Source: Polaromonas sp. 39-63-25
GTDB lineage: Bacteria > Pseudomonadota > Gammaproteobacteria > Burkholderiales > Burkholderiaceae_C
Length of the DNA: 64,000 nucleotides
Reading direction: 5' to 3'
Assembly (NCBI RefSeq): GCF_002278925.1
Contig: NZ_NCJH01000005.1
Location: forward strand, 62,001 to 126,000
Both the position numbers and the translations under genes were made by a program. Each line of letters starts with the position of its first letter. Positions within the stretch are counted from its first letter, which is position 1. This document shows positions 2,760 to 63,320 of this stretch, piece after piece. Below the pieces are notes generated by a model. It made no database searches and was not told the origin of the DNA. It was given only the letters and a program-made list of their open reading frames with translations.

Positions 2760-3650
2760 TAGCTGCGCCTGCGCAAGGCACAGGTCGTCCCAGGCCTTGG
2801 CCTTGTCGCCCAGGCTGCGCAGCAGGTAGGCCGGGTGGTAACTGACGACCACCGGCACGCCGAGGTAGCGAAACACCTGGCCACGCAGCTTGCCGAGCGG
2901 GATTTTCTGCACCTCGGGCACGCTGTCCTGCAGCAGCGACTGGGCGGCAAATTTGCCCAGCGCCAGGATCATTTTCGGCTGCAGCAGTTCGACCTGGCGT
3001 TTCAGGTAAGGCTCGCACTGCGCCACTTCCGCCGGGTCGGGGTTGCGGTTGGCCGGCGGGCGGCACTTGAGCACATTGGTGATGAAAACGCTGGTCGAGA
3101 GACCGGCCCGCGGCGCGGCAGCGTCATGGCCGCGCTGCAGGCCGATGGCCAGCAGCATGTTGTCGAGCAGCTTGCCGGCCTGGCCGACAAAGGGTTCACC
3201 GGCGAGGTCTTCGTTTTCGCCGGGCGCCTCGCCGACGATGAGCCAGTCGACCTGCGGCGCGGCGCCGTCGGCGGCCACTGGCCCGATGCCAAACACCGTG
3301 TTTTTGCGGCTTTCGCAGAGGGCGCAGGCGCGGCAGCCGGCCACCGCGGCCTGCAGGGCGGGCCAGTCCATCAGCTCCACGCCGGCAGGACGCGGCTGCA
3401 GGCCGGTGGCCGGCCGCGCCACGGGCACTTGGGCCGGCGGTCGCACCGCCGGTGCGGCGGCGGGTGCGAGCGCACGTGCCGGTTCGGCCTCAACATCAAA
3501 TCGGCCTTCAGCCCTTTTCGGAGGGGCGTCAACAGCTACTGTATTGATAGCAGCATCCGCTGCCACCGGCGGTGGCGATGGCGGCTGCCAGAGGCGCACG
3601 CCCATTTCACGCAGCATGGCGCGCTGGCGTTTGTCCAGGTCCAGGCTCAC
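2757..3650 (-). CDS. udg: Uracil-DNA glycosylase, family 4 (iron-sulfur)
   Basis: Removes uracil from DNA in base excision repair. Four cysteines (C106, C109, C196, C212) fit the 4Fe-4S ligands of family 4 UDGs. Active-site motifs are GEAPGENED (140-148), NVLKCRPPANRNP (192-204) and SYHPAYLLR (270-278). A Pro/Ala-rich linker of about 90 residues precedes the catalytic domain; 18 of its residues (34-51) are encoded by a 54-bp dispersed repeat. The start is GTG at 3650, giving the family-like MSLDLDKRQRAML; no good ribosome site is visible. It is last in the leftward set EamA-tsaB-rimI-udg (10 bp after rimI). Its stop codon is made by repeat R3. Confidence 0.94.
   Translation of the reverse strand: MSLDLDKRQRAMLREMGVRLWQPPSPPPVAADAAINTVAVDAPPKRAEGRFDVEAEPARALAPAAAPAVRPPAQVPVARPATGLQPRPAGVELMDWPALQAAVAGCRACALCESRKNTVFGIGPVAADGAAPQVDWLIVGEAPGENEDLAGEPFVGQAGKLLDNMLLAIGLQRGHDAAAPRAGLSTSVFITNVLKCRPPANRNPDPAEVAQCEPYLKRQVELLQPKMILALGKFAAQSLLQDSVPEVQKIPLGKLRGQVFRYLGVPVVVSYHPAYLLRSLGDKAKAWDDLCLAQAQL
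3498..3551 (+). repeat. 54-bp dispersed repeat, copy 1 (inside udg)
   Basis: Full 54-bp unit from AAATCGGCC to TTGATAGC, with CAGCTAC at position 36 of the unit. Read on the udg strand it is open and encodes udg residues 34-51 (AINTVAVDAPPKRAEGRF), part of the variable linker before the catalytic domain. Confidence 0.92.
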
Positions 3651-3660
3651 GGCAGCACTT

Positions 3661-4161
3661 TCATGGCTCGCTGTGTCCGGCTTGCAGTGCCATGCTCATG
3701 ACCACGGCGTCTTCGCGGGTGGCATTCGCCGCGGGGTAGTACTGGCGCCGGGTTCCGACGTGACGAAAGCCGTAACGCTCGTACACCGCCCTGGCCCGGC
3801 CGTTGCTCACGCGCACTTCCAGCCACAGCCACTGCGCGCCCTGGCCGCGCGACCAGAGTGCCAGCGCATCGAGCATCACGCGGGCCCAGCCCTGGCGCTG
3901 GTGGGCAGGCGCCACTGTGATGTTGAGCAGATGCACCTCGTCCACACCTTTCATGGCCACAAAATAGCCCAGCAGCTCCGCGCCCGGCCCGCTGCCGCCG
4001 GTGAGCACCAGCGCCTGGTAACCGGCCTTGAGCGAATCGCTGAAATTGCCGCGCGTCCACGGGTGCGCATAAGCACTTTGCTCGGCCCGCAGCACCGCAT
4101 CGAACCACGACTCGGTCATGGGTTCGAACTGGGCTTCGAGGGGTTCGAGAACGGCGCTCAT
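3661..4161 (-). CDS. rimI: Ribosomal protein bS18 alanine N-acetyltransferase
   Basis: GNAT-fold acetyltransferase of 166 residues that by family acetylates the N-terminal alanine of ribosomal protein S18. The RimI-type HPWTRGNFSDSL lies at residues 33-44. The acetyl-CoA loop Q-R-Q-G-W-A (88-93) follows the strand LLNITVAPAH, and the C-terminal VYERYGFRHVGTRRQYYP is typical. The stop of tsaB lies 6 bp upstream and udg follows 10 bp downstream. The tsaB-rimI pairing is a common bacterial arrangement and supports the assignment. Confidence 0.94.
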   Translation of the reverse strand: MSAVLEPLEAQFEPMTESWFDAVLRAEQSAYAHPWTRGNFSDSLKAGYQALVLTGGSGPGAELLGYFVAMKGVDEVHLLNITVAPAHQRQGWARVMLDALALWSRGQGAQWLWLEVRVSNGRARAVYERYGFRHVGTRRQYYPAANATREDAVVMSMALQAGHSEP

Positions 4162-4167
4162 GGCTCA

Positions 4168-4896: not shown

Positions 4897-4909
4897 GGGT
4901 TGATGAGTC

Positions 4910-4963
4910 AAATCAGGCCTTGGCCCTTGTGGAGTCTGCGCTAGCAGCTATCAAATCAGGAGT
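4910..4963 (+). repeat. 54-bp dispersed repeat, copy 2 (EamA 3' end)
   Basis: 54-bp unit starting AAATCAGGCC with CAGCTAT exactly at position 36; the last five bases (GGAGT) are degenerate compared with ATAGC. On the minus strand it encodes the last 16 residues of the EamA gene (TPDLIAASADSTRAKA) and its TGA stop at 4913-4915, so the repeat sets the C-terminus of that protein. Confidence 0.85.
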
Positions 4964-5932
4964 GGTTGTCGTGATGCGTTGGGCCTGCACACGCACGCCG
5001 AACACAATGCCCAGGGTCACCAGCGCCAAGCCGGCGAGCAGGTTCCAGTGCAGCGGCTCGCCGAGGAAGATCACCGCGCCCAGCGCCGACAGGCCGGGCA
5101 CCACCGCGGTGATCATGGTCGAGCGCACCGGGCCGAAGGACTGAACCATCTTGGTGAAGGTGATGCCGGAGATCACCACCGAGCCCACGCCCTGGAACAC
5201 CATCTGGAAAACAATCTCACTCCAGGGCGCGCTGGCCAGCCGGGTGGCGATGACGCCCGAATACGCCAGCAGGCTGTAGACCGGCACATAGGTCATGAAG
5301 GCAAACACGCTGATGGCAATGGTGGCAGACACCGCCTGCAGCGCATGTTTGCGCACCAGCACCGAATAAACCGCCCAGCAGGTGGAGGCGCAGAGAAACA
5401 GCAGATCGCCCTTCCAGACCTGGCTGCCGGCCTGCGTCCAGGCCTGCAGCAGGCTGGCGCCGCCCACCATCACGTCGCCCAGGAAAATCAGGCCCAGGCC
5501 GATGGCGCGTACCCGCGTCACGCGGTCTTTCAGGATCAGCACGGCCATCAGGGTGGTGCTCAGCGGCAGGGTGCCGGGCAGCAGCACCGAGGCATGGGCC
5601 GCCGGGGCGAAATAAAAGCCGCTGTAGGCCAGGCAGGCGTAACCGACACCGCCGACCAGGCCGATCAGCGCGGTGAGCCGGAAACCCAGTGGCGACAGGC
5701 CCAGCCAGCTGGGCGGCGCCAGAGCGGGGCGGCTGTCGCGCGCGCGGCGCCAGACCAGCCAGGCACCCCAAGGCAGCAGCACCATCGCCGCACCGATGAA
5801 ACGCAACAGGCTGATGTCCAGCGGCGTGAGGCTGCGGTGCGCCGTGGCGCGTGCAATCACGATGAAGGAGGTCCAGATGGCGACGGTCACGATGGCGGCA
5901 AGCACACCGACCGTCTTGGGAGAAAAACGCAT
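4913..5932 (-). CDS. EamA/DMT-family transporter
   Basis: Inner-membrane permease of 339 residues with about ten helices in two EamA repeats. The N-terminal helix reads VGVLAAIVTVAIWTSFIVIA and the second repeat begins LLFLCASTCWAVYSVLVRK. The start is the ATG at 5932 (MRFSPKTVG); an in-frame upstream start adds only hydrophilic residues. The last 16 residues and the stop codon lie in a 54-bp dispersed repeat, so the native tail has probably been replaced. It precedes tsaB by 16 bp and is divergent from dacB, with only 54 bp between the two start codons. Substrate unknown. Confidence 0.9.
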   Translation of the reverse strand: MRFSPKTVGVLAAIVTVAIWTSFIVIARATAHRSLTPLDISLLRFIGAAMVLLPWGAWLVWRRARDSRPALAPPSWLGLSPLGFRLTALIGLVGGVGYACLAYSGFYFAPAAHASVLLPGTLPLSTTLMAVLILKDRVTRVRAIGLGLIFLGDVMVGGASLLQAWTQAGSQVWKGDLLFLCASTCWAVYSVLVRKHALQAVSATIAISVFAFMTYVPVYSLLAYSGVIATRLASAPWSEIVFQMVFQGVGSVVISGITFTKMVQSFGPVRSTMITAVVPGLSALGAVIFLGEPLHWNLLAGLALVTLGIVFGVRVQAQRITTTTPDLIAASADSTRAKA

Positions 5933-5986
5933 GGCTTGATTATCCGGGCAAGCGGCCGCTTCGCAGGGCAAGGCCGATAATCAGCC

Positions 5987-7500: not shown

Positions 7501-7560
7501 GCATCACGCTGCGGCTTGGGTTCGCTATGGACAGTAGGCGCAACTCCCCACTCCCACCCC
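7501..7560 (+). repeat. 60-bp repeat shared with 13076-13138
   Basis: Begins GCATCACGCT and ends with ACAGTAGGCGCAACTCCCCA followed by CTCCCAC. The copy at 13076 has the same ends at exactly the same offset (29 bases to GACAGTAGG), with a diverged middle. Both lie just downstream of a plus-strand gene end. Confidence 0.85.
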
Positions 7561-7871
7561 TAGCCCCTGCCCTCGCCCCGCTGGGCGATGGAGGGGGACT
7601 TCATTTGGCTGCGTGTGCTGCGCTCGCGTGCAACCATGACGGCCACTTGACTCCGACATGACGCGCTACGCGCGTCATGTCTCCCCGCACCCGAACCCGT
7701 ATTTGTTTCCCCCACCCGTCGGGCTGGGCCGAGGAGTGCAGGCAAAAGCGGATCAGGGCTCGCGATTGTTTGAGACGGGAGAGTGCTAGCGAGACCCCGC
7801 TTTTACCGAGCACCGGAGGTTGCCCGCAGCGAAGCGAAGGGACCCAGACCATCGGGTCGCTTTTTTCTTTG

Positions 7872-7907
7872 CTTACTTTCTTTTTGGCGACGCAAAAAGA
7901 AAGTGAG
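7872..7907. terminator. Long hairpin, possible bidirectional terminator
   Basis: CTTACTTTCTTTTTG (7872-7886), a 6-base loop GCGACG, then CAAAAAGAAAGTGAG (7893-7907): a 15-bp stem with one G-T type mismatch. It lies between convergent dacB and cnoX. The stem is AT-rich on both arms, unlike a classic GC-stem terminator, and is preceded by TTTTTTCTTT. A role in termination is inference. Confidence 0.55.
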
Positions 7908-7981
7908 TTGCCGCCGGGCAACCCCCGGCTTGCCGGCGAACTACAAAAGACCGCACAGTGCGAGGACGGCGGCCCCGCGAA

Positions 7982-8881
7982 TCAGCTCAGCACCACACTG
8001 CTCAAGCGCCGGCGGTAAGTGGCCACGGTCGGATCATCCGGCGGGATCTGGCCGTCGGCGACCTTGACTTTGGGCGGCTCGATGATTTCGAGGATGGACA
8101 CAAAGGTCTTGCGTGCCAGTTCCCCGTTCCAGGCCTTGTCGCGCATCAGAATTTCCAGCAGCTCGTCCATGGCCGGCACCCAGCGCTGCTGGCTCATGTG
8201 CAACTGCGCCAGCGCGTAACGGGTGTCGAAATCCCGCTTGTTGGCTGCAAGCTTTGCATCAAATCCGGCTTGAGCCCCCGCTGCATCTGCGTGAGCAGCT
8301 CCTGATTCGATAGCATTGAACCAGTGCTGCAGGGCTTCGAACTTGCGCACGGTCGGCGCCTTGCTGGCCACCGGCGCAAAAGCGGCCTTGGCGTGTTCCA
8401 CCTGACCATGCTGCAGCAGCAGGCGGATGTAGTCGAAACGGGCGTTGTCGTTGGCCGGGTCGCTGGCGACGGCGGCCTGCAGTTTTTCCAGCACGGCGGC
8501 CGGGCTGGTGTCTTCCGGCTCGGCGATGTCTTCCTCGGCGGGTGGCAGCTCTTCGGCCGGCGGCAGGTGTTTGTCGAGAAACTCCTTGACCTTGCCTTCG
8601 GGCAGTGCCCCCTGGAAGCCGTCCACCGGCTGGCCGTTCATCATCAGGATGCAGGTCGGGATGCTGCGGATGCCGAAGGCGGCGCCGAGTTGCTGCTCCT
8701 GGTCGGAGTCGATCTTGGCCAGCTTGAAGCGTCCGCCGTAGGCGATCTCGACCTTCTCCAGAATCGGGCCGAGTGATTTGCAGGGCCCGCACCAGGGCGC
8801 CCAGAAATCAATCAGCACGGGGATGGTCATGGAAGCCGCAACGACTTCCTCTTCGAAATTGGCAATGGTGACGTCGATCAT
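7982..8881 (-). CDS. Thioredoxin-fold, TPR co-chaperone-like protein (CnoX/YbbN family)
   Basis: 299-residue protein with an N-terminal thioredoxin domain (1-110, active site W-C31-G-P-C34), an acidic linker (PAEELPPAEEDIAEPED) and a C-terminal tetratricopeptide-like region (130-299). This is the layout of YbbN/CnoX, a chaperone-redox protein that works with GroEL in E. coli. Unlike E. coli YbbN, whose motif lacks one cysteine, this one keeps both, so oxidoreductase activity is possible. Residues 190-207 are encoded by a 54-bp dispersed repeat. The start is the ATG at 8881; longer upstream reading has no family similarity. Divergent from purE. Confidence 0.9.
   Translation of the reverse strand: MIDVTIANFEEEVVAASMTIPVLIDFWAPWCGPCKSLGPILEKVEIAYGGRFKLAKIDSDQEQQLGAAFGIRSIPTCILMMNGQPVDGFQGALPEGKVKEFLDKHLPPAEELPPAEEDIAEPEDTSPAAVLEKLQAAVASDPANDNARFDYIRLLLQHGQVEHAKAAFAPVASKAPTVRKFEALQHWFNAIESGAAHADAAGAQAGFDAKLAANKRDFDTRYALAQLHMSQQRWVPAMDELLEILMRDKAWNGELARKTFVSILEIIEPPKVKVADGQIPPDDPTVATYRRRLSSVVLS
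8261..8314 (+). repeat. 54-bp dispersed repeat, copy 3 (inside cnoX-like gene)
   Basis: 54 bp from AAATCCGGCT to TTCGATAGC, with CAGCTCC at position 36. On the gene strand it encodes residues 190-207 (AIESGAAHADAAGAQAGF) in the same frame used in udg and the acetoacetyl-CoA synthetase gene. Confidence 0.9.
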
Positions 8882-9041
8882 GGTGCTGGACAAATAGGGG
8901 TGGGTGAAGGGGTTTTCAACAGGCACAGCGGTGCCGCGCTGGCACGATAGCATGCGGCGGCCGGCCCGGCTGGCCCACCAGCCCGTAAAATCAGCGCTGG
9001 CAGCCAACGATTGACCGCACAGCAGGCCCGGAAAGCAACAC

Positions 9042-9551
9042 ATGACAACAACGCAAGATCTCAAGCCGCCCCTCGTGGGTGTGGTGATGGGTTCCAGCAG
9101 CGACTGGACCACCATGCAGCATGCCGTGCAGATTCTCCAGCAGTTCGGCGTGGCGCACGAAGCGCGCGTGGTCTCGGCCCATCGCATGCCCGACGAGCTG
9201 TTCGCCTATGCCGAACAGGCCGGCGGGCGCGGCCTGCAGGCCATCATTGCCGGTGCCGGCGGTGCCGCCCACCTGCCGGGCATGCTGGCCGCCAAGACCG
9301 CGGTGCCGATTCTCGGTGTGCCGGTCGCCAGCAACCACCTGCAGGGCGTCGATTCGCTGCACAGCATCGTGCAGATGCCCAAGGGCGTGCCGGTCGCGAC
9401 CTTTGCCATCGGCAACGCCGGTGCGGCCAACGCGGCCCTGTTTGCGGTGGCCATGCTGGCCCTGCACGACAAAACCCTGGCCGACAAGTTGCAGGCCTTC
9501 CGCGCCGAGCAGACCGCCGCAGCGCGCGCCATGACCTTGCCGCCCGCATGA
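9042..9551 (+). CDS. purE: N5-carboxyaminoimidazole ribonucleotide mutase
   Basis: Class I PurE of 169 residues. It converts N5-CAIR to CAIR in purine synthesis, after PurK. Motifs include [11 protein letters not shown] (12-22), the catalytic SAHRMP (45-50), the [12 protein letters not shown] loop and [20 protein letters not shown]. The stop codon overlaps the purK start (ATGA at 9548-9551), so translation is coupled. Divergent from the thioredoxin-TPR gene. Confidence 0.97.
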
Positions 9552-10771
9552 GTTTTTCGCCGATTTTCCCGGGCACCGTCGATGCCGCGGGCCAGCCCGC
9601 GACCCTGGGCGTGATGGGTGGCGGCCAGCTCGGCCGCATGTTTGTGCATGCGGCGCAGCGGCTCGGGTATTTCACCGCGGTGCTCGACCCCGACCCGACC
9701 AGCCCGGCCGGCCGCGTCAGCCACTACCACATCCAGACCGCTTACCGGGACGAGAACGGCCTGGCGCAGCTGGCTTCACTGTGCGCCGCCATCACCACCG
9801 AATTTGAAAACGTTCCCGCCGACGCGCTGCAAACCCTGGCCGTGGACCGGCCGGTGGCGCCCGGCGCGGCGGCCGTCGCCATTGCGCAAAACCGCATCGA
9901 GGAAAAAGCCCACTTCACCGCCAGCGCCGGCATGGCGGGTGTGACCTGCGCGCCTTATGCCGTGATCGAAACGTCGGCGCAGCTCGCCGCCGTGCCGGCC
10001 GACTTGCTGCCCGGCATCCTGAAAACGGCACGCATGGGTTATGACGGCAAGGGCCAGGTGCGCGTCAAAACCGCTGCTGAACTTGCCGCCGCCTGGGCCG
10101 ATTTGAAGCAGGTGCCCTGCGTGCTGGAAAAGCTGCTGCCGCTGAAGGCCGAATGTTCGGTCATCGTCGCGCGCGGCTGGGACGGCACCATCACCGGTTT
10201 TGCGCCGCAGTACAACGTGCACGTTGATGGCATCCTCGCCGTTACCGCGGCTTATGAGGGAAACATGCCTGCAGCCCTTGCACAGCGGGCGCGAGCAGCT
10301 ACTGAATCCATAGCTAATCACATCGCTTATGTGGGCGTGTTGTGCGTGGAGTTTTTTGTGATCGACGACGGCAGTGCCGATGGCGCGCTGGTGGTCAACG
10401 AAATGGCGCCGCGGCCGCACAACAGCGGCCACTACACGATGGACGCCTGCGACGTTTCGCAGTTCGACCTGCAGGTCCATGCCATGGCCGGCTTGCCGCT
10501 GCCGCAGCCGCGCCAGCATTCGCCGGCCATCATGCTCAACCTGCTCGGTGACCTGTGGTTTGACGCCGCCGACCAGTTGCGCACGCCCGACTGGCAGGCC
10601 GTGCTGGCCTTGCCGGGCACGCATTTGCACCTGTACGGCAAGCTCGAAGCGCGCGCCGGCCGCAAGATGGGCCACCTCACCGTCACCGGCGCCGACGTGG
10701 CCAGCGTCACCGCGGTCGCACGCCAGGCCGCGCAGCTGCTGGGGCTGCCCGGCCTGGACGCCTTGCGATGA
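9548..10771 (+). CDS. purK: N5-carboxyaminoimidazole ribonucleotide synthase
   Basis: ATP-grasp enzyme of 407 residues that makes N5-CAIR from AIR, bicarbonate and ATP; its product goes directly to PurE. The N-terminal nucleotide fold [12 protein letters not shown] (22-33) and the ATP-grasp core with [19 protein letters not shown] are diagnostic. The ATG at 9548 overlaps the purE stop, and its own TGA overlaps the next ATG at 10768. Residues 239-256, just before the conserved [11 protein letters not shown] strand, are encoded by a 54-bp repeat unit, yet the protein length seems normal, which suggests replacement rather than insertion. Confidence 0.96.
10261..10314 (+). repeat. 54-bp dispersed repeat, copy 4 (inside purK)
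   Basis: 54 bp from AAACATGCCT to CCATAGC, with GCAGCCCTT, GCGGGCGCGAG and CAGCTAC at the expected offsets. It is read on the plus strand here and encodes PurK residues [18 protein letters not shown]. This is the only copy fully inside a gene that is read in the forward direction. Confidence 0.85.
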
Positions 10772-12195: not shown

Positions 12196-13041
12196 ATGAC
12201 CCAACCTCCCGGACCCGTCGCCGTGAGCGCCGTGCCTGCCGTTTCGGTCCTGCTGCAGCAACTGCGTGACGGCAGCGACCGCGCCGCGGCCGAGCAGGAA
12301 ATCCTGCGCATCACGGCCCATCTGGAGGAGCAGCTGCGCCAGCGCGGCGCCGAGGTGGCCGCCGCCAACAAGGAACTCGAAAACTTTTCCTATTCGGTCT
12401 CGCACGACCTGCGCGCGCCGTTGAGCACGATCGACGGTTTCAGCCGGCTGCTCGAGGGCGCTGTCGCCAAGGGCAATGCGGAACGCAGCACGCACTACCT
12501 GCAGCGCATACGCCTGGGCGTGGGCAACATCAATGAGCTGATCGCCGCGCTGCTGGCCGTCTCGCGCCTGCTGCGCGCACCGCTGGCGCCGCAGGCGGTG
12601 GACCTGGGCGCGCTGGCCCAGGCCGCGTTTGCCGCGCTGCAGGAAGCCGACCCCGCGCGGGTAGCCGACATTACGGTGCAGCCGGCACTTGCCGCGCACG
12701 GTGATCCGGCGATGCTCAAGCAGCTGGTCGATCACCTGGCCGGCAACGCGTGGAAGTTCACCTCGAAAAAGGAACGCGCCGACATCGTGGTGGGCAGCCA
12801 ATCGGGGCAGGACGGTGAAACCGTTTACTTCTTCAAGGACAACGGCGCGGGGTTCGACATGGCCTACGCCGAGAAACTTTTCGGGATTTTCCAGCGCATG
12901 CATGTGAGTTCGGATTTCCCCGGCATCGGCGCCGGGCTGAGCACGGTGCAGCGCATTGTGATGCGGCATGGCGGGCGAATCTGGGCGGAGGCCGCGCCTG
13001 AGCAAGGCGCGACGATCTACTTCACCTTGCCAGGGGCCTGA
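12196..13041 (+). CDS. Small soluble sensor histidine kinase
   Basis: 281-residue histidine kinase with only a short N-terminus (about 55 residues, coiled-coil LRITAHLEEQLRQRGAEVAAANKELENF) before the HisKA box SYSVSHDLRAPL (phospho-acceptor H70). The HATPase domain has the N box HLAGNAWKFTS, the G1 box DNGAGFDM and a GIGAGLSTVQRIVMRHGG tail. There is no membrane segment and no PAS, GAF or CHASE domain, so the signal input is unknown. No response regulator is adjacent. Its kinase core is close to those of the two large kinases at 30093 and 33873. It converges on the metH-like gene. Confidence 0.9.
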   Translation: MTQPPGPVAVSAVPAVSVLLQQLRDGSDRAAAEQEILRITAHLEEQLRQRGAEVAAANKELENFSYSVSHDLRAPLSTIDGFSRLLEGAVAKGNAERSTHYLQRIRLGVGNINELIAALLAVSRLLRAPLAPQAVDLGALAQAAFAALQEADPARVADITVQPALAAHGDPAMLKQLVDHLAGNAWKFTSKKERADIVVGSQSGQDGETVYFFKDNGAGFDMAYAEKLFGIFQRMHVSSDFPGIGAGLSTVQRIVMRHGGRIWAEAAPEQGATIYFTLPGA

Positions 13042-14283: not shown

Positions 14284-14349
14284 ACCCCGATTTTAGGACG
14301 CCGGCCGAACGTGTACCCACCAAGGGCCAATTTTCCGCAGGTCCGCGCC

Positions 14350-14442
14350 AGCCGGGGCCGCGGATCTGGCTTCGCCAGTCCGCAGGCGCAGCGCCCCCTC
14401 GGGGGGCAGCGTATTACACGAAGTGAAAAGCGTGGGGGCTCT
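14350..14442 (+). repeat. GC-rich dispersed repeat, ~90 bp family, copy R4
   Basis: Forward copy, from GCCGGGGCCGCGG to GCGTGGGGGCT. It has the compensated change GGATCTGGC-TTC-GCCAGTCC in the first hairpin compared with GGTCCGGC-TTC-GCCGGCCC in R3, so the stem is kept. It lies between the divergent metH-like gene and the rhodanese gene. Confidence 0.88.
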
Positions 14443-14482
14443 ATTTTCCCCTGACAATAGCGCCTACATCCGAGCCCGACCC

Positions 14483-14891: not shown

Positions 14892-14945
14892 AGATCCGGC
14901 CCCGGCCCTTGTCCCACTTGCGCAAATAGCTCCTTTTTCGATAGC
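14892..14945 (+). repeat. 54-bp dispersed repeat, copy 5 (recQ leader)
   Basis: 54 bp from AGATCCGGCC to TTCGATAGC; the internal GCGCAAATAGCTCC aligns with GCGCAAACAGCTAT of copy 10. It ends 19 bp before the TTG start of recQ, in the position where a leader and ribosome site would be expected. Confidence 0.88.
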
Positions 14946-18728: not shown

Positions 18729-18782
18729 AAATCGGCCGTTAGCGCGCGCCCATGTTGCGTGAGCAGCTATCCATTTCGCAGC
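18729..18782 (+). repeat. 54-bp dispersed repeat, copy 6
   Basis: Starts AAATCGGCCG and has CAGCTAT exactly at position 36; the last six bases are CGCAGC instead of GATAGC. It fills the 77-bp gap between the convergent DISM gene and the AAA ATPase gene, 9 bp before the latter's stop. Confidence 0.8.
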
Positions 18783-28955: not shown

Positions 28956-29179
28956 GTCTTGGCGCCATCCCGTGGCGAAAAATTGCGATACCTCTACATT
29001 AAGGGTTTTCCCTAGGGCTGCAAGCCCAAAACAGGCCGATACCCATGCATAAGGCGCATAGTTGGCCTGCCAGTCGGCATAGACGGGCGTTTCCGCTCTC
29101 CGGGGGCTCCCTGACCTCTTCCCGGGTTGGAAAATGCCGCCAACCGTTGGCGAAACAGGCTTCCTGCACAATCGGCAGG

Positions 29180-30034
29180 GTGAATATCCAGCTTCTGTCC
29201 GACCTGCACCTTGAATCCAATCCGCATTTCGTGGCCCAGCCCGTCCCGGGGGCGGACCTGCTGGTGCTGGCAGGCGATATCGGTTCCTACCAGCCGGGAT
29301 CACTGCTGACCGACATGCTGGATGACGACGACTTCGGACTCGCCCGCTTTTCTCCCCTGCCGGTGGCGCAGGGCGGCGCGGCCTGGCCGACGCCGGCTTT
29401 TTTCCTGCCCGGCAACCACGAGTACGACGGGCAGGACTTCGAGGCCACGCACACGCGCCTGCGCGAGACCTGCGAGCGGCTGGGCCTGGTCTGGCTGGAA
29501 CGCGAGACTGTGCAGTGGCGGGGCGTCCGTTTTGTCGGCTGCACCTTGTGGACCGACTTTGATGCGCTGACCGCCACACAGGCGGCCGACGGCAGCCTGA
29601 CCACGGGCGATGTCCTCAAGGCGCGTGACAAGGCCTTTCGCGCCGCCAATTTTTACCTCCGCAAAAACCACGCCTTCAGGGATGGCCAGCCCATGCTGGC
29701 GGACGCCGTGCGCGAACTGGGCCTGCAAAGCCAGGCCTGGCTAAGGCAGGCGCTGGCGATCCCCTTTGACGGCCCGACCGTGGTCGTCACGCACTTTGCA
29801 CCCAGCCTGCTCAGCGGCGACCCGCGCTACGGCCTGGCGCCCGGTACGGCGGGGTTCTGCAATGCGCTGGACGATCTGCTGGCGCAGGCGCAGCTGTGGC
29901 TGCACGGCCACCTGCACTGCCCCAACGACTATGTCAGCAACGGCTGCCGGGTGGTGGCCAATCCGCTCGGTTATGCCCGCAAGGGTGAACAGGATGGATT
30001 CAAACCCGATTTGTTGATCAAAATCGGGGTATAG
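29180..30034 (+). CDS. Metallophosphoesterase
   Basis: Calcineurin-like phosphoesterase of 284 residues. Metal-ligand motifs appear in order: D-x-H (SDLHLES, residues 7-13), GDI, GNHE (in PGNHEYDG), THFAPS and GHLHCPND. The natural substrate cannot be told. The GTG at 29180 is chosen since family members start within a few residues of the SDLH strand; an upstream ATG at 29045 adds 45 unrelated residues. The last codons and the TAG stop (30032-30034) lie inside a 54-bp dispersed repeat. Confidence 0.88.
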   Translation: MNIQLLSDLHLESNPHFVAQPVPGADLLVLAGDIGSYQPGSLLTDMLDDDDFGLARFSPLPVAQGGAAWPTPAFFLPGNHEYDGQDFEATHTRLRETCERLGLVWLERETVQWRGVRFVGCTLWTDFDALTATQAADGSLTTGDVLKARDKAFRAANFYLRKNHAFRDGQPMLADAVRELGLQSQAWLRQALAIPFDGPTVVVTHFAPSLLSGDPRYGLAPGTAGFCNALDDLLAQAQLWLHGHLHCPNDYVSNGCRVVANPLGYARKGEQDGFKPDLLIKIGV

Positions 30035-30074
30035 CCCATATCTGGCGGGCGCAAACAGCTATCAAAACAATAGC
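30021..30074 (+). repeat. 54-bp dispersed repeat, copy 7 (stop of phosphoesterase)
   Basis: 54 bp from AAATCGGGGT to ACAATAGC, with GGCGGGCGCAAACAGCTAT inside, almost identical to copy 10 over the second half. It encodes the final residues KIGV and the TAG stop of the metallophosphoesterase and ends 18 bp before the stop of the convergent kinase gene. Confidence 0.93.
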
Positions 30075-38552: not shown

Positions 38553-38606
38553 GCTACTGATTTCATAGCTATATACGCCCATTGCAAAAGGGCTGCAGCC
38601 CGTTTT
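38553..38606 (-). repeat. 54-bp dispersed repeat, copy 8
   Basis: Reverse copy: GCTACTGATTTCATAGCTAT at one end and GGGCTGCAGCCCGTTTT at the other, where the 5' dyad GGGCT-GC-AGCCC is perfect. It lies in the gap between the disordered protein gene and the convergent M14 peptidase gene. Confidence 0.92.
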
Positions 38607-38657: not shown

Positions 38658-39509
38658 TCAGGGCGTGCGCGACGACACCTCGGGCGCGCCCACCGGCACA
38701 CGCTCGGTCATCCAGCGCAGCAGGTCCAGCCACATCTGGCGCATCTCGGCGTCCAGCGGTGTGCGCATCGCATTGGGCAGTTCAATGGTGACCACCGGCA
38801 CCCCTTTGTGCACACCACCGTAATTGCCCAGCGAGCCCGGGAAAATACCGACCTGGTCCAGGTACAGCCGCCCCAGTTTGGAGGGCGGAACCGACGGCCC
38901 GTCGAAGTCGAGCACACCGTAGGGCGCATGAATGCTGACGATCAGGTGGGGCTTGAAGCGCTGCATCTCCTGATGCAGAAAGCGCGACTCCGGCTCGGAC
39001 AGGGGCTTGGTGCCCGGCCAGCGGCGCGGATCCTTGCGGGTGCGTTTTTCCCAGTACACCTTGGCGTCACGCTCCCAGAACGGCGTCGGAAAGTTGCGGT
39101 TCAGATCAACGCCGTTGGCGTTGACGCGGCGTGGCGGGCTGGCCAGCAGCCCGTCGGGATTGAGGGCCGGTATGAAACGCCAGTGAATGGCTTGCGACCA
39201 GGGCGCCGCGGCTTCCTCGGCCAGGCGGATCCAGTGCAGGGCCACCGAGGCTGACGACAACTCGTCGCCATGAATCGCGCCCAGCACCAGCACACGCTGG
39301 CGCACATCCTCGGGCTTGATATCGCGCATCCACAGGGTCTGCCCCTTGACCGAACGGGCGGCCGTGGGCTGCAGCTGGGCGGCCTCGCAGAGGTTGCGCC
39401 TGAGATTCGGAAGCTTGCGAACAAAATCATCGCAAGGCCCCGCAGCCTGTGCGCCAGTCGCTATCAATAATGAAGCTGCCAGAAGGGCCGCGGTGCAGGT
39501 TAAACGCAT
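38658..39509 (-). CDS. M14-family zinc carboxypeptidase (murein peptide amidase-like)
   Basis: Secreted 283-residue metallopeptidase with signal peptide 1-22 (cleavage after GAQA). Zinc ligands H80 and E83 (GAIHGDE) and H194 (SIHAPYG); substrate residues N137-R138 in NANGVDLNRNFP; catalytic glutamate E243 in VTIELPNAM. The size and motif spacing suit the MpaA-like branch, which cleaves murein tripeptides, so a role in cell-wall peptide turnover is likely but unproven. A mature cysteine pair (C26, C41) could form a disulfide. Divergent from a flavin reductase gene (39 bp apart). The signal-peptide codons contain GCTATCAATAATGAAGCTG, which resembles part of the 54-bp repeat. Confidence 0.88.
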   Translation of the reverse strand: MRLTCTAALLAASLLIATGAQAAGPCDDFVRKLPNLRRNLCEAAQLQPTAARSVKGQTLWMRDIKPEDVRQRVLVLGAIHGDELSSASVALHWIRLAEEAAAPWSQAIHWRFIPALNPDGLLASPPRRVNANGVDLNRNFPTPFWERDAKVYWEKRTRKDPRRWPGTKPLSEPESRFLHQEMQRFKPHLIVSIHAPYGVLDFDGPSVPPSKLGRLYLDQVGIFPGSLGNYGGVHKGVPVVTIELPNAMRTPLDAEMRQMWLDLLRWMTERVPVGAPEVSSRTP

Positions 39510-41013: not shown

Positions 41014-43038
41014 TCAGGCGGCGTTGGCGCGCTGCTCTGCAAACGCAACGTACCAGTCCAGGCAACCGGGGTTGGCCATCGCGTCACGATTGACCACCTT
41101 GTCGATCGGCTGGCCCAGCAGCAGCTTCTTGATCGGCAACTCCTGCTTCTTGCCCGACAGCGTGCGCGGGATCTCCGGCACCTGGAAAATTTCGTTGGGC
41201 ACAAAACGCGGGGACAGCGCTGTCTTGATCGCGTTGTTGAGCCTGGCCTTCATCGCATCGTCCAGGGCCACGCCCTCGCGCAACACCACAAACAGCGGCA
41301 TGTAACTTTCGCGCCCCAGGTATTCCAGGTCCACCACCATGGAGTCGATCACCTCCGGCAGCGCCTCGACCGCGCTGTACAGCTCGCTGGTGCCCATGCG
41401 CAGGCCGTGGCGGTTGATGGTGGCGTCGGAGCGGCCGTAGATGATGCAACTGCCCGAGGGCGTGATCTTGAGCCAGTCGCCGTGGCGCCAGACATTGGGG
41501 TACATGTCGAAATAACTCGAGATATAACGCGCGTTGCCGGTATCGCCCCAGAAGTACAACGGCATCGAGGGAATCGGCTGGCTGCAGACCAGCTCGCCAA
41601 CCTCGCCGATCACCGGCTGGCCCTGCTCGTTCCAGGCCTCGACCGCGCAGCCGAGCAGGCGGCACTGCATCTCGCCAGGCACCTGCGGCAGCTCGCGGTT
41701 GCCGCCTATGAAGGCGCCTGCGAAGTCTGTGCCGCCGGAAATATTGCACCACCAGATGTCCTGTTGCGCTTCGGTTTTGGCAATGCGCCTGAACTGCTCC
41801 GTGCCCCAGGTCTGCGCCTCGGGCGACAGCGGTGAGCCGGTGGTGCCCAGCGCGCGCACGGACGACAGGTCGCCGCAGGTCGACAGGTCCACGCCGGCCT
41901 TCAGGCAGTTGGCAAAAAAGGCCGCGCCGGCGCCGAAGAAGGTCACGCCCAGTTTCGCGCCGAAGCGCCACAAGGTGGTCCAGTCCGGCTTGTCCTTGCC
42001 GCCACCGGGGTTGCCGTCGTAAATGCAGCAGGTCGTGCCGTTGAGCAGGCCGCTGACCTGGGCGTTCCACATCACCCAGCCGGTGGAGCTGTACCAGTGG
42101 TAACGCTCACCGAAAGAGTTTGCTTCGTAGCTGCAGCCGATGTCGTTGTGCAGGGTCTTGAGCGCCAGCGCCACCAGCACGGTGCCGCCATGGCCGTGCA
42201 CGATGGGTTTGGGCAGGCCGGTGGTGCCGCTGGAATAGACGATCCACAGCGGATGGTCGAACGGCAGCCAGAGCGGTTCAAACGCCGAAGTTTCGGCATC
42301 ATTTCGGGCTGTAGCGCTTTCAAACCGTGCGCTGTCAGCTATGGAATTAGTAGCATCGAGGTTGTAGTGGACGATCACGTGCTGCAGCGAAGGCAGGGCC
42401 GCACGGATCTCCGCCACCACCGCCGTGCGGTCGATGTCGCGCCCGCCGTAAGTGACGCCGTCGCAGGCAATCAGCACCTTGGGTTCGATCTGCCGGAAGC
42501 GGTCCAGCACGGCATTCGTGCCCATGTCGGGCGCGCAGATGCTCCACACGCCGCCTATGCTGACCACCGCGAGGAAAGCCACCATGGCCTCGGGAATGTT
42601 GGGCAGGTAAGCGGCCACGCGGTCGCCCGGCAACACACCCTGGGCTTGCAGGTGCAGCGCCAGCGACGCCACCTGGCGGCGCAACTCGGGCCAGCTCAGC
42701 TCGCGCGGCGGCGCGCTGTCGAGGCTTTTTTCGTTGTGGCTGAGCAGCGCGGGAAAGCCCGCCGCATGGGCGCGATCAACGTGCCGGAACACTTGCTGCG
42801 CGTAGTTGAATTGCACCCCGGGAAACCAGCGGGTCCCGGGCATTTTTGCCTCGACCAGCACGTCGGTAGCGGGCGTGGGCGATTGCAGATCAAAGTAGTC
42901 CCAGATGCTTTGCCAGAAAGCGTCCAGGTCCGTCACCGACCAGCGCCACAAGGCGTCGTAATTGTCAAAAGACAGCTGGCGCGTGTCGCGCAGCCAGTTC
43001 TGGTACAGGCGGATTTGGGGGATGTAGGGGGCGCTCAT
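41014..43038 (-). CDS. Acetoacetyl-CoA synthetase
   Basis: Adenylate-forming enzyme of 674 residues (acetoacetate-CoA ligase). It activates acetoacetate for use in PHB turnover, ketone use or leucine catabolism. Motifs: P-loop YSSGTTGLPKP (near 264-274), GTTGSPLSPEAQ, the A5/A7 region YGRSDATINRHGLRMGTSEL and the C-terminal lysine segment RTLSGKKQELPIKKLL. The N-terminal ACAS-like cap (NYDALWRWSVTDLDAFW) is typical. The start is the ATG at 43038 (MSAPYIPQI). Residues 229-246, in the variable linker before the P-loop, are encoded by a 54-bp repeat. Gene name aacS would fit. Confidence 0.94.
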   Translation of the reverse strand: MSAPYIPQIRLYQNWLRDTRQLSFDNYDALWRWSVTDLDAFWQSIWDYFDLQSPTPATDVLVEAKMPGTRWFPGVQFNYAQQVFRHVDRAHAAGFPALLSHNEKSLDSAPPRELSWPELRRQVASLALHLQAQGVLPGDRVAAYLPNIPEAMVAFLAVVSIGGVWSICAPDMGTNAVLDRFRQIEPKVLIACDGVTYGGRDIDRTAVVAEIRAALPSLQHVIVHYNLDATNSIADSARFESATARNDAETSAFEPLWLPFDHPLWIVYSSGTTGLPKPIVHGHGGTVLVALALKTLHNDIGCSYEANSFGERYHWYSSTGWVMWNAQVSGLLNGTTCCIYDGNPGGGKDKPDWTTLWRFGAKLGVTFFGAGAAFFANCLKAGVDLSTCGDLSSVRALGTTGSPLSPEAQTWGTEQFRRIAKTEAQQDIWWCNISGGTDFAGAFIGGNRELPQVPGEMQCRLLGCAVEAWNEQGQPVIGEVGELVCSQPIPSMPLYFWGDTGNARYISSYFDMYPNVWRHGDWLKITPSGSCIIYGRSDATINRHGLRMGTSELYSAVEALPEVIDSMVVDLEYLGRESYMPLFVVLREGVALDDAMKARLNNAIKTALSPRFVPNEIFQVPEIPRTLSGKKQELPIKKLLLGQPIDKVVNRDAMANPGCLDWYVAFAEQRANAA
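42301..42354 (+). repeat. 54-bp dispersed repeat, copy 9 (inside acetoacetyl-CoA synthetase gene)
   Basis: 54 bp from ATTTCGGGCT to TTAGTAGC, with CAGCTAT at position 36. On the gene strand it encodes ATNSIADSARFESATARN (residues 229-246), in the same frame as copies 1, 2 and 3. Confidence 0.88.
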
Positions 43039-43116
43039 GGGGCGAAAGCTTAGCAGGCCACCCCTCGCGCAAGCATCCACCTTGGCGACAGGCGCGGGGG
43101 GTACCGCCGTCGCAAA

Positions 43117-43219: not shown

Positions 43220-43816
43220 TTACTTGGGCGTGCCCATCATCATTTCGACGTCGGTCATGGGCACCATGCCGTTTTTGGCCGGCTTCATGCTTTTCCACAT
43301 GGCGGTTTGATAGCGGTTCCACTCCCTCGAGGAAACCATGCCGTCGCCGTTGGTGTCCATGCTGTTCATGGCGGTGTTGTTGAGCTTGGCGTCCACCTTC
43401 ATCTCGGCCTTGGCGGCGGGCGTGCCACCGGCGGCGGAGGGGTTGATCTGCGCATTGGCAGCAGCGCCGCCGGAACCGGCCACGGGGTTTTGGGCGGACA
43501 GCGTGGAACCATTGGCCTTCTTGGTGTCGACGTTCATCTCGGCCTTGGCCGCAGCTTTGCCGCCCGATGCGGACGGGTTGATCTGCGCGTTGGCAGCAGC
43601 GCCGCCGGAACCGGCCACGGGGTTTTGTGCAGACAGGGTGGAACCATTGGCCTTTTTGGCGTCAACGTTCATCTCGGCCTTGGCCGCAGGTGTGCCGCCG
43701 GAAGTGGTCGGGCTGGCTTGTGCGGAAGGCGTGGCAACCACGCCAGCGGGTGCCTGGGCAAAGGCAGCGGTACAGGCCAGGGCGGCCAGGGTCAGGACAA
43801 GGGATTGCTTTTTCAT
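43220..43816 (-). CDS. Secreted EF-hand protein with internal 45-residue repeats
   Basis: 198 residues with signal peptide 1-21 (cleavage near AFAQA). The middle part consists of about 2.3 copies of a 45-residue unit containing AKAEMNVDAKKANGSTLSAQ and a GSGGAAANAQINPSA tail; it looks extended and of low complexity. A C-terminal canonical EF-hand loop, DTNGDGMVSSREW, should bind calcium. The DNA repeats are almost identical, so unit number may vary between strains. A second secreted EF-hand protein is at 50304. Role unknown; calcium-responsive envelope protein is inference. Confidence 0.85.
   Translation of the reverse strand: MKKQSLVLTLAALACTAAFAQAPAGVVATPSAQASPTTSGGTPAAKAEMNVDAKKANGSTLSAQNPVAGSGGAAANAQINPSASGGKAAAKAEMNVDTKKANGSTLSAQNPVAGSGGAAANAQINPSAAGGTPAAKAEMKVDAKLNNTAMNSMDTNGDGMVSSREWNRYQTAMWKSMKPAKNGMVPMTDVEMMMGTPK
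43391..43700 (-). repeat. 135-bp tandem repeat in the EF-hand gene
   Basis: The word ATCTCGGCCT recurs at 43401, 43536 and 43671, exactly 135 bp (45 codons) apart, and the intervening sequence is nearly identical. About 2.3 units. Confidence 0.9.
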
Positions 43817-49097: not shown

Positions 49098-49526
49098 ATG
49101 CCTATCTGGAAACAACCGATTTCTGTCGAACTGCTGACCCTCAACAACGCCAACAGCGCCGTGACGCACCTGGGCATCGAATTCCTGGAGGTCGGCGACG
49201 ATTTCATCCGGGCCCGCGTGCCGGTCGATGAACGCACGCGCCAGCCCTATGGCCTGCTGCACGGCGGGGTGTCGGTGGTGCTGGCTGAAACGCTGGGCTC
49301 CTGCGGCGCCGCCTTTGCAGCGCCCGAAGGCCACCGCACGGTGGGCCTGGACATCAACGCCAACCATCTCAAGGGCGTCACCAGCGGCTGGGTCATCGGG
49401 ACCACCCGACCGGTGCACATCGGCCGCAGCACCCAGGTCTGGGCCATCGAGTTGACCAACGAGGCCGGGGAGCTGACCTGCGTCTCGCGGATCACGATGG
49501 CGATGCTGGCCCCGCGTCAAGAGTAA
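49098..49526 (+). CDS. Hotdog-fold acyl-CoA thioesterase (YdiI/MenI-like)
   Basis: 142 residues. The motif PYGLLHGGVSVVLAETLGSCG holds the catalytic glutamate (E in AET) and the HGG typical of the 4-hydroxybenzoyl-CoA thioesterase/YdiI branch. In E. coli, YdiI hydrolyses DHNA-CoA. The preceding EFLEVGDDFIRARVPVDERT also fits. The true acyl-CoA substrate is unknown. Start ATG 49098 (MPIWKQPISVELL). Its TAA stop overlaps the first base of a 54-bp repeat. Confidence 0.9.
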   Translation: MPIWKQPISVELLTLNNANSAVTHLGIEFLEVGDDFIRARVPVDERTRQPYGLLHGGVSVVLAETLGSCGAAFAAPEGHRTVGLDINANHLKGVTSGWVIGTTRPVHIGRSTQVWAIELTNEAGELTCVSRITMAMLAPRQE

Positions 49527-49579
49527 AATCGGGCTCCAGCCCTTATCGGACGGGCGCAAACAGCTATTAATACGATAGC
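49526..49579 (+). repeat. 54-bp dispersed repeat, copy 10 (reference copy)
   Basis: The cleanest copy, used here as the reference. It begins AAATCGGGCTCCAGCCCTTA, has GGGCGCAAACAGCTATTAAT in the second half and ends CGATAGC. Dyads: GGGCT-CC-AGCCC at positions 6-17 and GCTAT-N7-ATAGC at positions 38-54. It fills the gap between the thioesterase stop and the convergent cobalamin adenosyltransferase stop. Confidence 0.95.
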
Positions 49580-52233: not shown

Positions 52234-52287
52234 GCTATTAAATTCATAGCTGCGTGCGCCCGATCACCGGGGGCCGGATGCCATTCC
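52234..52287 (-). repeat. 54-bp dispersed repeat, copy 11
   Basis: Reverse copy: GCTATTAAATTCATAGCTG at one end, GTGCGCCCG in the middle, and a diverged 5' dyad at the other end. It lies between the FAD oxidase stop and the glycine-zipper lipoprotein gene. Confidence 0.8.
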
Positions 52288-58096: not shown

Positions 58097-58150
58097 ACTA
58101 TGGTTTTGATAGCTGTCAGCGCACGTCGCACCTGGGCTGGAGGCCGATTT
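58097..58150 (-). repeat. 54-bp dispersed repeat, copy 12 (between parA and hydrolase)
   Basis: Reverse copy: ACTATGGTTTTGATAGCTG at one end and GGGCTGGAGGCCGATTT at the other; exactly 54 bp. It occupies most of the 90 bp between the parA stop and the hydrolase start, so it is transcribed within the par operon. Confidence 0.9.
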
Positions 58151-59597: not shown

Positions 59598-59647
59598 GGA
59601 AAACCTCCGAAAAACAGAGTTTTGAGTTTACGTCAGCGCACAGGCTG

Positions 59648-59693
59648 AAAATCTGCCCGCCTCCGTGATCCGCGGCGGATGTGCAGATTTTTT
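59648..59693 (-). terminator. Hairpin after rsmG, likely terminator of mnmG-rsmG
   Basis: AAATCTGC (59649-59656) pairs with GCAGATTT (59683-59690), with an inner CCGCC/GGCGG stem. On the minus strand it is followed by TTTTC, and on the plus strand by TTTTTT. It lies 15 bp after the rsmG stop. Confidence 0.65.
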
Positions 59694-59707
59694 GCCCGGG
59701 CTGTGGG

Positions 59708-62370: not shown

Positions 62371-62689
62371 CACGCCTCCTTCAATAAAGCAGTCGTCAGG
62401 CGAGGTGCCTGCACGCCCTGGAAAAGACCGGCCGGGCCGGAGAAGTCAGCAAACAGCTTGCCGCTTTCACAGGACGAAAAGCATGATTTTATCAGGGTGC
62501 CTCTTTTTTGTGCGGCCGGCCCCCAACAAGGCCAATGCCATTCCTTCTACCGGCAAGGCAAACTGATCGCTATGATTTTAATAGCTATTCGCGCTTACCT
62601 CATAAGGGCTAAACGCCTAAATCCTTGATGGCGCAGGCGGACAGCAGCGTTCCGGCCCGCCAGGCGCGGCACGCAAGCACAATAGAGGG
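62371..62689. other. Divergent gap between mnmG and FMN reductase
   Basis: 319 bp. It holds a 54-bp repeat (62569-62622), an AT-richer patch near 62480-62510 with TAAAAT on the minus strand that may be the mnmG promoter, and ACAATAG at 62679-62685 just before the FMN reductase start. I see no DnaA-box cluster, so oriC itself is probably not here. Confidence 0.6.
62569..62622 (-). repeat. 54-bp dispersed repeat, copy 13
   Basis: Reverse copy: GCTATGATTTTAATAGCTAT at one end, CATAAGGGCT in the middle and CGCCTAAAT at the other end; exactly 54 bp, in the mnmG/FMN reductase intergenic region. Confidence 0.92.
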
Positions 62690-63268
62690 ATGAAACTTCT
62701 GATCTTCGCCGGCAGCACCCGGCTCGCCTCCTTCAACCGCAAACTCGCCCATGCAGCCGCCGATCTGGCGCGCGCCAGCGGCGCCGACGTGACCCACCTC
62801 GAACTGGCGGACTTTGACATCCCGATGTACAACGCCGACCTGGAAGCCAAGGGAACACCAGCCGACGTCATGAAGCTCAAGCAGCTGATGTTCGAGCACC
62901 CGGCCTGGATCATCTGCTCACCCGAATACAACGGCAGTTACACCGCCCTGCTCAAGAACACCATCGACTGGGTTTCCAGTCCGGTCAAGGCCGACCCGGC
63001 CTGGCAGGAAGGTTTCAAGTCCTTCAGCGGCAAGGTCGTGGGCATGCTCAGCGCCTCGCCGGGCGCGCTGGGCGGACTGCGTTCGCAAAGCCACCTGGTG
63101 CCGCTGCTGCTCAACGCGCAATGCTGGGTCGCGCCCCAAGCCTTTGCGCTGGGCCATGCGGGTGATGCGTTTGACGCCGATGGCAAGCTGGTCAACGAAA
63201 CCCATCGCAAAAACGTACAGGCGGTGATCGACCAGGTTCTCTTTGCGAGCAGCCGACTCCATGCTTGA
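62690..63268 (+). CDS. NADPH-dependent FMN reductase
   Basis: 192-residue flavodoxin-fold reductase (NAD(P)H:FMN/azoreductase/chromate-reductase-like). FMN-binding start LLIFAGSTRLASFNRKLA (3-20) and the loop CSPEYNGSYTALLKNTIDW (about 81-99) are typical; GKVVGMLSASPGALGG also binds the cofactor. Physiological substrate unknown: quinones and flavins are common. The ATG at 62690 directly follows AGAGGG and lies only 6 bases after a CACAAT -10-like box, so the transcript may be leaderless. Its TGA stop overlaps a 54-bp repeat. Confidence 0.93.
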   Translation: MKLLIFAGSTRLASFNRKLAHAAADLARASGADVTHLELADFDIPMYNADLEAKGTPADVMKLKQLMFEHPAWIICSPEYNGSYTALLKNTIDWVSSPVKADPAWQEGFKSFSGKVVGMLSASPGALGGLRSQSHLVPLLLNAQCWVAPQAFALGHAGDAFDADGKLVNETHRKNVQAVIDQVLFASSRLHA

Positions 63269-63320
63269 ATTGGCGTTCAGCCCTTATTCCACGGGCGCCA
63301 ACAGCTTCCTTATTAATAGC
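63267..63320 (+). repeat. 54-bp dispersed repeat, copy 14 (between FMN reductase and ykgJ)
   Basis: 54 bp from GAATTGGCGTTCAGCCCTTA to TTAATAGC with ACGGGCGCCAACAGC inside. It starts within the TGA stop of the FMN reductase and ends 11 bp before the GTG start of the next gene, so the latter's leader lies at the repeat edge. Confidence 0.93.

Follow-up and report, generated by a model that had tools for sequence, protein, structure and literature searches.

A dispersed 54-bp unit in Polaromonas and other Comamonadaceae as a putative double-stranded DNA recognition signal

A stretch of 64,000 nucleotides from Polaromonas sp. 39-63-25 (contig NZ_NCJH01000005.1 of assembly GCF_002278925.1, positions 62,001 to 126,000), referred to here as the window, contains fourteen copies of a dispersed 54-bp unit, which lie on both strands, within genes as well as between them. 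The question raised by this locus is what maintains an element of such length in such different surroundings; that is, whether the unit is spread by a copying mechanism, acts as RNA, or is read as DNA. We consider it probable, at roughly 0.7, that the unit is a double-stranded DNA signal that evolves in place and is read by a co-evolving protein. The spacing of its conserved words is rigid; in purK it is present without a change in length and follows the local spelling, or dialect; its motif columns change more slowly than its filler columns; and the weight matrix finds none of it in 150 kb of plasmid DNA. If this reading is true, the unit is an unusually long, information-rich signal overlaid on the genome as a whole.

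In what follows, G000 denotes the genome of the window (4.83 Mb, 54 contigs) and other G numbers the compared genomes; L numbers denote individual loci or stretches. Unit positions run from 1 to 54 within the core, and negative positions or those above 54 lie in the flanks. The original prediction had placed fourteen copies of 54 nt in the window, ten on the plus and four on the minus strand, and all of them are found where it put them. It had also held that all copies keep the same words at fixed spacing. The spacing is indeed fixed, but the exact words are not kept by all: GGGCT-N2-AGCCC is intact in 2 of the 14 copies, GGGCGC at positions 27-32 in 5, CAGCTAT at 36-42 in 7 and ATAGC at 50-54 in 9. 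Mean pairwise identity among the copies is 61% (48-83%) over 54 nt, their GC content is 41-61%, and in the window they occur singly rather than in tandem.

A sequence-only model (R1) built from the fourteen window copies finds all of these training copies again at E <= 2.5e-11, the next matches having E = 0.15 and 0.19. In G000 it yields at least 150 matches, the weakest among the matches listed scoring 33.6 bits. A gapless 54-column weight matrix was applied to 534,378 bases of G000, namely the window, 20 stretches of 20 kb chosen by place (L031-L050), and 23 three-kb loci that are themselves top-match loci (7 further such loci were omitted as duplicates). It detects 109 units in this DNA, and none at 8 bits or more in the one order-2 Markov control. 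Chance is thus excluded as the origin of the family, and the expected enrichment across the genome is borne out. Using the unbiased part only, i.e., the 400 kb of stretches (63 units) and the window (15 units), we estimate that G000 carries about 760-810 copies. The earlier account had missed a weak fifteenth candidate in the window, at 39423, and the location of 5 of the 14 copies inside open reading frames (ORFs) with Pfam or PDB support. It had also missed conservation beyond the core, which extends to about -8 and +58, with T at -8 to -6 and A or G at -3, -2 and 55.

The rigidity of the spacing was measured in 1.19 Mb of DNA, comprising the window, stretches of G000, G004, G017, G032 and G149, and three stretches from G014 and G019. 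AGCTA(N)8ATAGC occurs 85 times, and any other gap of 0-24 at most 3 times; AGCCC(N)19AGCTA occurs 70 times, and any other gap of 5-39 again at most 3 times. These counts bear out the suggestion that length is under selection. The motif holds about 51 bits of information, and its consensus in several lineages includes two inverted repeats, one inner and one outer.

Evolution of the unit at the compared sites

The copy at 10261 lies within purK. The PurK protein that contains it aligns without gaps, across the unit segment, to a PurK of known structure, which we take to be from a Burkholderia. The 18-codon segment is gapless in 58 of 59 aligned loci (L132 is without one codon, and some loci have adjacent indels); ATA stands at unit positions 50-52 in 27 of the 59, and of the 52 loci searched with the model, 24 have a unit at these codons. 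In the unit-poor relatives G003, G005, G013 and G022, the segment has equal length in 4/4 and is written in GC-rich codons. The model finds 7 matches in G003 and none in the other three, yet 32 kb of G005 did contain one unit; the cross-genome searches, being modelled on the G000 dialect, may miss others. The segment corresponding to the copy at 8261 is also of equal length in G003, and a longer stretch around it has 9 additional nt in G005, G013 and G022. In place of the intergenic copy at 49526, G013 and G022 have unrelated sequence of near-equal length (+6 nt). Besides these three copies and that at 58097, considered below, the other ten window copies have no two-sided match in the compared stretches of the unit-poor relatives. 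These alignments indicate that, inside genes and at the tested sites, the unit is not an insertion. A mechanism that copies full units, as had been proposed, is not supported, given the unchanged length at purK and, in G003, at 8261, and the local dialect of the purK site; a mobile element was rejected for the purK copy on the same two grounds of length and dialect.

The inner part of the unit is lineage-specific. When units were located by their outer columns only, reversed-sequence controls gave 0 in eight sets and 1 in G149. The consensus inner repeat is GCCC/GGGC in G000 and G004, AGCCCA/TGGGCT in G149, CTAGCGCTTG/CAAGCGCTAG in the Acidovorax set and G068 (one base shorter in G175), GCGCTTG/CAAGCGC in G073, and GCGCCCG/CGGGCGC in Xenophilus (6 units). 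The final ATAGC is often missing in G175 (20 chosen matches). As predicted before the DNA was scanned, position 16 of the purK copy matches the dialect of its genome in 4/4 genomes: it is G in G073 and G068, where 34/42 and 14/20 units have G, and C in G062 and G123, where C is found in 9/10 and 16/16. Because the units of one genome share a spelling, and this spelling shifts wholesale from one genome to the next, a protein whose specificity changes is suggested; from a hairpin one would rather expect covariation at the level of single copies.

Orthologous copies were compared where both flanks could be placed in a relative, 40-400 nt apart, the unit being placed between them by best motif score. 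By this procedure, the unit is present in 34/34 placeable cases (11 in G004, 13 in G032, 9 in G017 and 1 in G014). Substitutions in the 28 high-information columns, relative to the 16 low-information columns, amount to 33/308 vs 50/176 in G004 (.107/.284; Fisher p = 1e-6), 35/364 vs 70/208 in G032 (.096/.337; p = 4e-12) and 35/252 vs 63/144 in G017 (.139/.438; p = 1e-10). Filler columns, then, accumulate substitutions about three times as fast as motif columns. In five unit-poor relatives, synonymous change in purK is near complete at the motif codons (34/37 vs 499/1351, p = 8e-12).

The dependences between columns bear on whether the unit is read as DNA or as RNA. The strongest ones in G000 are those between neighbours, namely 2-3 (AA/TT), 18-19 (TT/AA/AG/CC) and 27-28 (GG/AA/TT/CT), a pattern of co-swapping that would resemble DNA-shape readout. 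Distant pairs among the top 30 include 6-42, 44-47, 32-37, 37-51 and 7-13, and none of the 30 joins partner columns of either inverted repeat. Columns 42 and 50, which close the loop, appear to vary independently (TA 54, TG 26, CA 18, CG 11). In 13 genome or genus sets, pairing in the inner and outer repeats departs from the value for independent columns by no more than 0.075, and inner-repeat pairing in G000 is slightly above independence (.664 vs.611), neither comparison including a significance test. Compensatory changes in the dyads, for which the original prediction had suggested a test, are not clear between copies of one genome. Folds of the 60 best units as RNA barely beat shuffled sequences (mean z of -0.6 and -0.7), T-rich tracts (5 of 6) adjoin 3/78 and 2/78 units, and Rfam gives no match at any window copy. 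Because pairing does not clearly covary copy by copy, an RNA or hairpin reading is unsupported. An RNA hairpin or riboregulator was accordingly rejected on the missing Rfam match in the window, the lack of clear covariation and the weak folds, and an intrinsic terminator on the near-absence of T tracts beside the units.

Gene context and distribution

The copies in the window, including the weak candidate, are as follows.

3498..3551, plus strand: unit; open in its reverse frame, within the N-terminal region of a uracil-DNA-glycosylase ORF (2757-3650, minus)
4910..4963, plus strand: unit; supplies the final codons and stop of an EamA-transporter ORF (4913-5971, minus)
8261..8314, plus strand: unit; antisense, in frame, inside a thioredoxin/TPR (CnoX/YbbN-like) ORF (7982-9187, minus)
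10261..10314, plus strand: unit; sense, inside purK, with codons starting at unit position 2
14892..14945, plus strand: unit; between tandem genes
18729..18782, plus strand: unit; between convergent genes
30021..30074, plus strand: unit; overlaps the 3' end of a metallophosphoesterase ORF (29045-30034, plus)
38553..38606, minus strand: unit; between convergent genes
39423..39476, plus strand: weak candidate fifteenth unit (22 bits); between divergent genes, found by the weight matrix only and not reported by R1
42301..42354, plus strand: unit; antisense, in frame, inside an acetoacetyl-CoA-ligase ORF (41014-43080, minus)
49526..49579, plus strand: unit; fills a convergent intergenic space, with the top score among the 150 matches listed for G000
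52234..52287, minus strand: unit; between tandem genes
58097..58150, minus strand: unit; between tandem genes, with an orthologous unit in G014 and a half-decayed one in G019
62569..62622, minus strand: unit; between divergent genes
63267..63320, plus strand: unit; between tandem genes

The glycosylase domain occupies residues 131-290 of ORF 2757-3650 (minus), and the purpose-made gene caller used to assign gene context (coding fraction 0.87) left the copy at 3498 intergenic. For the 78 units of the window and the 20 G000 stretches, this caller places 22 inside coding sequence, 8 across a gene end and 2 at stretch edges; the intergenic units comprise 20 between convergent genes, 22 between tandem genes (12 in the direction of the genes, 10 opposed to it) and 4 between divergent genes. 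Several of those between convergent genes sit 1-4 nt from the called gene end. Units in coding sequence are sense in 13 cases and antisense in 9, with one frame used by 11 of the 13 and one by 8 of the 9; in the coding copies that were read, both preferred frames are open and encode Ala-rich peptides. ATA makes up 15 of 30 Ile codons in coding units, vs 234 of 5938 in all called genes.

The original prediction mentioned similar words in other Comamonadaceae, and carrier records are in fact mostly Comamonadaceae by name. With G000 included in each count, matches occur in 59/150 genomes of the family sample (52/126 genera), in 28/61 of the set of relatives (27/36 congeners, 0/24 from other families) and in 6/250 of the order sample, where one single match lies outside the family. 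Among the matches listed, named records are mostly Polaromonas, Rhodoferax, Acidovorax, Simplicispira, Xenophilus, Curvibacter, Ottowia, Giesbergeria and Comamonas; other labels are an Undibacterium and a Rubrivivax metagenome-assembled genome (MAG), MAGs labelled Gamma- or Alphaproteobacteria, and a Kluyvera record, whose locus (L221) has no weight-matrix match at 15 bits. Within Comamonadaceae the unit family is patchy, and some close relatives have hardly any units or none.

A blastn search with one copy against plasmids and phages gave no match; the query was degenerate and the search had no positive control. Because such a query is uninformative, plasmid stretches were scanned with the weight matrix. 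It finds no match in 150 kb, i.e., 50 kb each of pPNAP01 and of two plasmids that we take to be pPol360 and pPol338. GCTAY-N7-RTAGC occurs twice in these 150 kb, vs 16-19 occurrences in every 100 kb of G000 and G149; unit density in carrier genomes is 12-35 per 100 kb, a figure from genomes other than the plasmid hosts. An exact long pattern searched in viral contigs is matched in 12 stretches, once in each.

What the unit may be for

We propose that the unit serves as a genome-wide, double-stranded recognition signal of about 66 bp with a 54-bp core. At the tested sites it would be kept, and re-spelled in place by base substitutions, where the DNA tolerates it, namely in short gene-end spaces first and in some protein segments whose amino acids suit two open frames. 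The reader would be a trans-acting protein that co-evolves with the unit; in lineages with an inner inverted repeat, it may bind there as a dimer. Because the dialects and the coordinated losses extend across the family, such a reader could be sought by comparison of genomes.

As to what such a reading would achieve, the unit may mark chromosomal DNA as kin, in the manner of the DNA uptake sequence (DUS) of Neisseriaceae and the uptake signal sequence (USS) of Pasteurellaceae, a purpose to which we give somewhat less than even odds. In natural transformation, biased uptake and recombination would then spread and restore good copies. This purpose is suggested because in-place evolution, dialects, the preference for gene ends, the absence from plasmid stretches and the set-wise loss all fit DUS. 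Like the unit, DUS and USS occur in many copies, in both orientations, within and between genes; they share with it the existence of dialects (followed at purK in 4/4) and spelling in place, as at purK (4/4), at 8261 (in G003) and at 49526 (+6 nt). The extended USS is about 30 bp long, and DUS or USS occur about once per 1 kb; by comparison, there is one unit per 6-8 kb. The available text of PMC3630211 describes thousands of DUS copies, some intragenic, with association to gene ends and terminators, lineage dialects and dyad arrangements. The length of DUS and USS is given as 9-11 bp in the part of PMC4212676 at hand, which differs from the 54-66 bp of the unit. That same text reports natural transformation, with a hint of sequence-limited uptake, for Verminephrobacter eiseniae, a member of Comamonadaceae that is linked to our case by family membership. 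More tentatively, Comamonadaceae would hold a third, independently evolved watermark of kin DNA beside DUS and USS, 54-66 bp long, with clear lineage dialects and a previously undescribed receptor, and lost as a set in some relatives. If the unit is such a kin mark, a large environmental family would have in it a means of confining recombination to relatives.

Several observations weigh against the reading of the unit as a protein-read signal that evolves in place, or against its uptake-like purpose. No reader protein was identified in this analysis. The information in the motif, about 51 bits, far exceeds that needed for some 800 sites, and to our knowledge the unit is longer and rarer than any familiar DUS or USS. 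Synonymous change in purK is only weakly reduced at the motif codons of ten carriers (20/80 vs 1026/2999, p = 0.09). An inner repeat of at least 4 bp, on which a dimer could sit, is missing from 5/13 sets (G017, G032, G062, G123 and Rhodoferax). The unit can also disappear from a site. Other genes occupy the interval at 62569 in G014, G017 and G019, and what G017 retains at 49526 is a degraded version containing additional bases. Around 58097, a spacer with a unit should measure 100 nt in G003, 95 nt in G005 and 81 nt in G018; the observed lengths are 0, 19 and 152 nt. Indels therefore occur between genes, and judging from this alignment intergenic copies may have originated by insertion. Finally, ComEC does not separate carriers from the rest; it is found in 146/150 family genomes, and was rejected as a separating gene because it is nearly universal. 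Two of the four genomes without it carry units, namely G098 (21 of 35 scored matches) and G094 (1 match). The intermediate number of unit matches in G098, together with its missing ComEC match, could reflect decay after loss of competence.

A physically similar interpretation with a different purpose is that the unit is a site of chromosome architecture or of a nucleoid protein, the units being bound all along the chromosome by a structural protein peculiar to the lineage. We regard this as rather unlikely, and nearly as likely as the uptake purpose. It would accord with the long motif and its two inverted repeats in several lineages, and with the missing weight-matrix match in 150 kb of plasmid. 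In the complete genome G149, which has 50 units in 400 kb, the spread is more even than Poisson (19/20 stretches with units, dispersion 0.48, p = 0.03), but in G000 it is Poisson (dispersion 1.05). It may count in favour of architecture that neighbouring units in G000 lie on one strand in 39/56 pairs (coin-flip p = 0.0025), and against it that no such coherence is seen in G149, G073, G068, G004, G017 or G032. The strands of G000 are 17 plus and 46 minus in the 20 stretches and 11 plus and 4 minus in the window, and the mix among the listed matches varies by contig (12 contigs, p = 0.02). Polarity of the KOPS kind, in which orientation follows replication, is not seen between the halves of G149, with 14 plus and 11 minus units per half, the origin being assumed at the record start. 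Also against architecture, repeated change of dialect at hundreds of sites would be harder without a drive. If architecture were nevertheless the answer, the unit would expose a nucleoid protein not known before.

The other candidates are much less probable. A mobile repeat, or one of the repetitive extragenic palindrome (REP) type spread by a REP-associated tyrosine transposase (RAYT) with old copies decaying, is improbable, even if the high copy number, the information beyond the need of recognition and the spacer-length differences at 58097 speak for it. Transposases of the Y1 type are indeed commoner in carriers: among the 149 other family genomes they occur in 48/58 carriers vs 54/91 genomes without a unit match (p = 0.004), and in 32/36 strong carriers (p = 0.001), both tests being made without correction for phylogeny. 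The association is weak and perhaps phylogenetic, and 4/36 strong carriers are without Y1. The RAYT-like gene envisaged in the original prediction has a single counterpart in G000, a Y1 match at L061:1171-1884 (minus), and the surrounding 3.3 kb contain neither a 54-bp unit nor the GC-rich repeat described below. Moreover, the columns are constrained at fixed sites, the purK site follows the dialect, and length is unchanged at purK in 4/4 relatives and at 8261 in G003 (the other three having 9 nt more). A transcription terminator, or an element of the mRNA 3' end, fares no better. The 20 of 78 units between convergent genes, several of them 1-4 nt from a called gene end, are what it would predict; against it are the scarcity of T-rich tracts, the mean fold z of -0.6 and -0.7, the lack of clear covariation and the 22 of 78 units inside coding sequence. 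A variant in which a bound protein acts as a roadblock may be considered. Least likely by far is a structured RNA element, which the pair of inverted repeats seen in several lineage consensuses might bring to mind, but which is at odds with the missing Rfam match in the window, with pairing so close to independence in the 13 sets, and with coding copies in both sense (13) and antisense (9).

REP and REPIN elements with their RAYT are short, dispersed, lineage-specific inverted-repeat units that are extragenic and copied by the transposase; the unit differs in being in place at purK and partly intragenic, with no RAYT found adjoining a unit in G000. The palindromic elements of Rickettsia are in-frame repeats inside proteins that were inserted and lengthen the protein, whereas the purK unit is not an insertion. 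The HIP1 element of cyanobacteria overlays coding sequence. It resembles the unit as a frequent genome-wide signal, and differs in being, according to the available part of PMC4390886, an 8-bp perfect palindrome linked to methyltransferases.

Searches of the open PMC literature, judged mostly from the result lists, gave no description of the 54-bp family; only two papers among the results appeared relevant. We take the authors of one to be Tong, Schliekelman and Mrazek (2017). The portion of that paper (PMC5217627) at hand lists GCTTAT(N)5AAGCG in Acidovorax ebreus, with 114 copies (44 convergent, 4 divergent), and ATAGCT(N)22CAAAAG in Polaromonas naphthalenivorans, with 125 copies (18 in genes); in this portion they are separate potential novel motifs, with no mention of a 54-bp unit, dialects or in-place evolution. 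The former corresponds to unit positions 16-31 in the dialect of Acidovorax and G175, and the latter, on the complementary strand, to positions 9-14 and 37-42 as spelled in L279, as seen in related records rather than in the A. ebreus and P. naphthalenivorans chromosomes. Both motifs thus appear to be fragments of the unit, which would unite two published orphans. The other paper, PMC3110155, describes in its available part the BRE of Bordetella and Comamonadaceae, a dispersed repeat of about 90 bp and 69% GC, often in tandem and with some copies in genes. The unit, at 54 bp and 41-61% GC and in single copies in the window, is set apart from BRE by this description and not by its letters.

Other repeats in the window

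A GC-rich repeat, about 90-100 bp long and containing strong inverted repeats, lies at 1465-1668, 2661-2771 and 14337-14453, and also in 9/20 G000 stretches. It is perhaps the published BRE. A separate interspersed repeat of about 440 bp lies at 7501-7945, with no Pfam match in the two ORFs tested. Dozens of matches with 73-93% identity are listed for it in G004, G017 and G032, some of them as head-to-head inverted pairs, and it has matches in 5/20 G000 stretches. Head-to-tail repeats of 135 bp, two full copies and a partial third, occupy 43385-43715. Lastly, 12296-13029 and 33909-34645 share a long, diverged inverted similarity (70-75%), and are probably paralogous genes.

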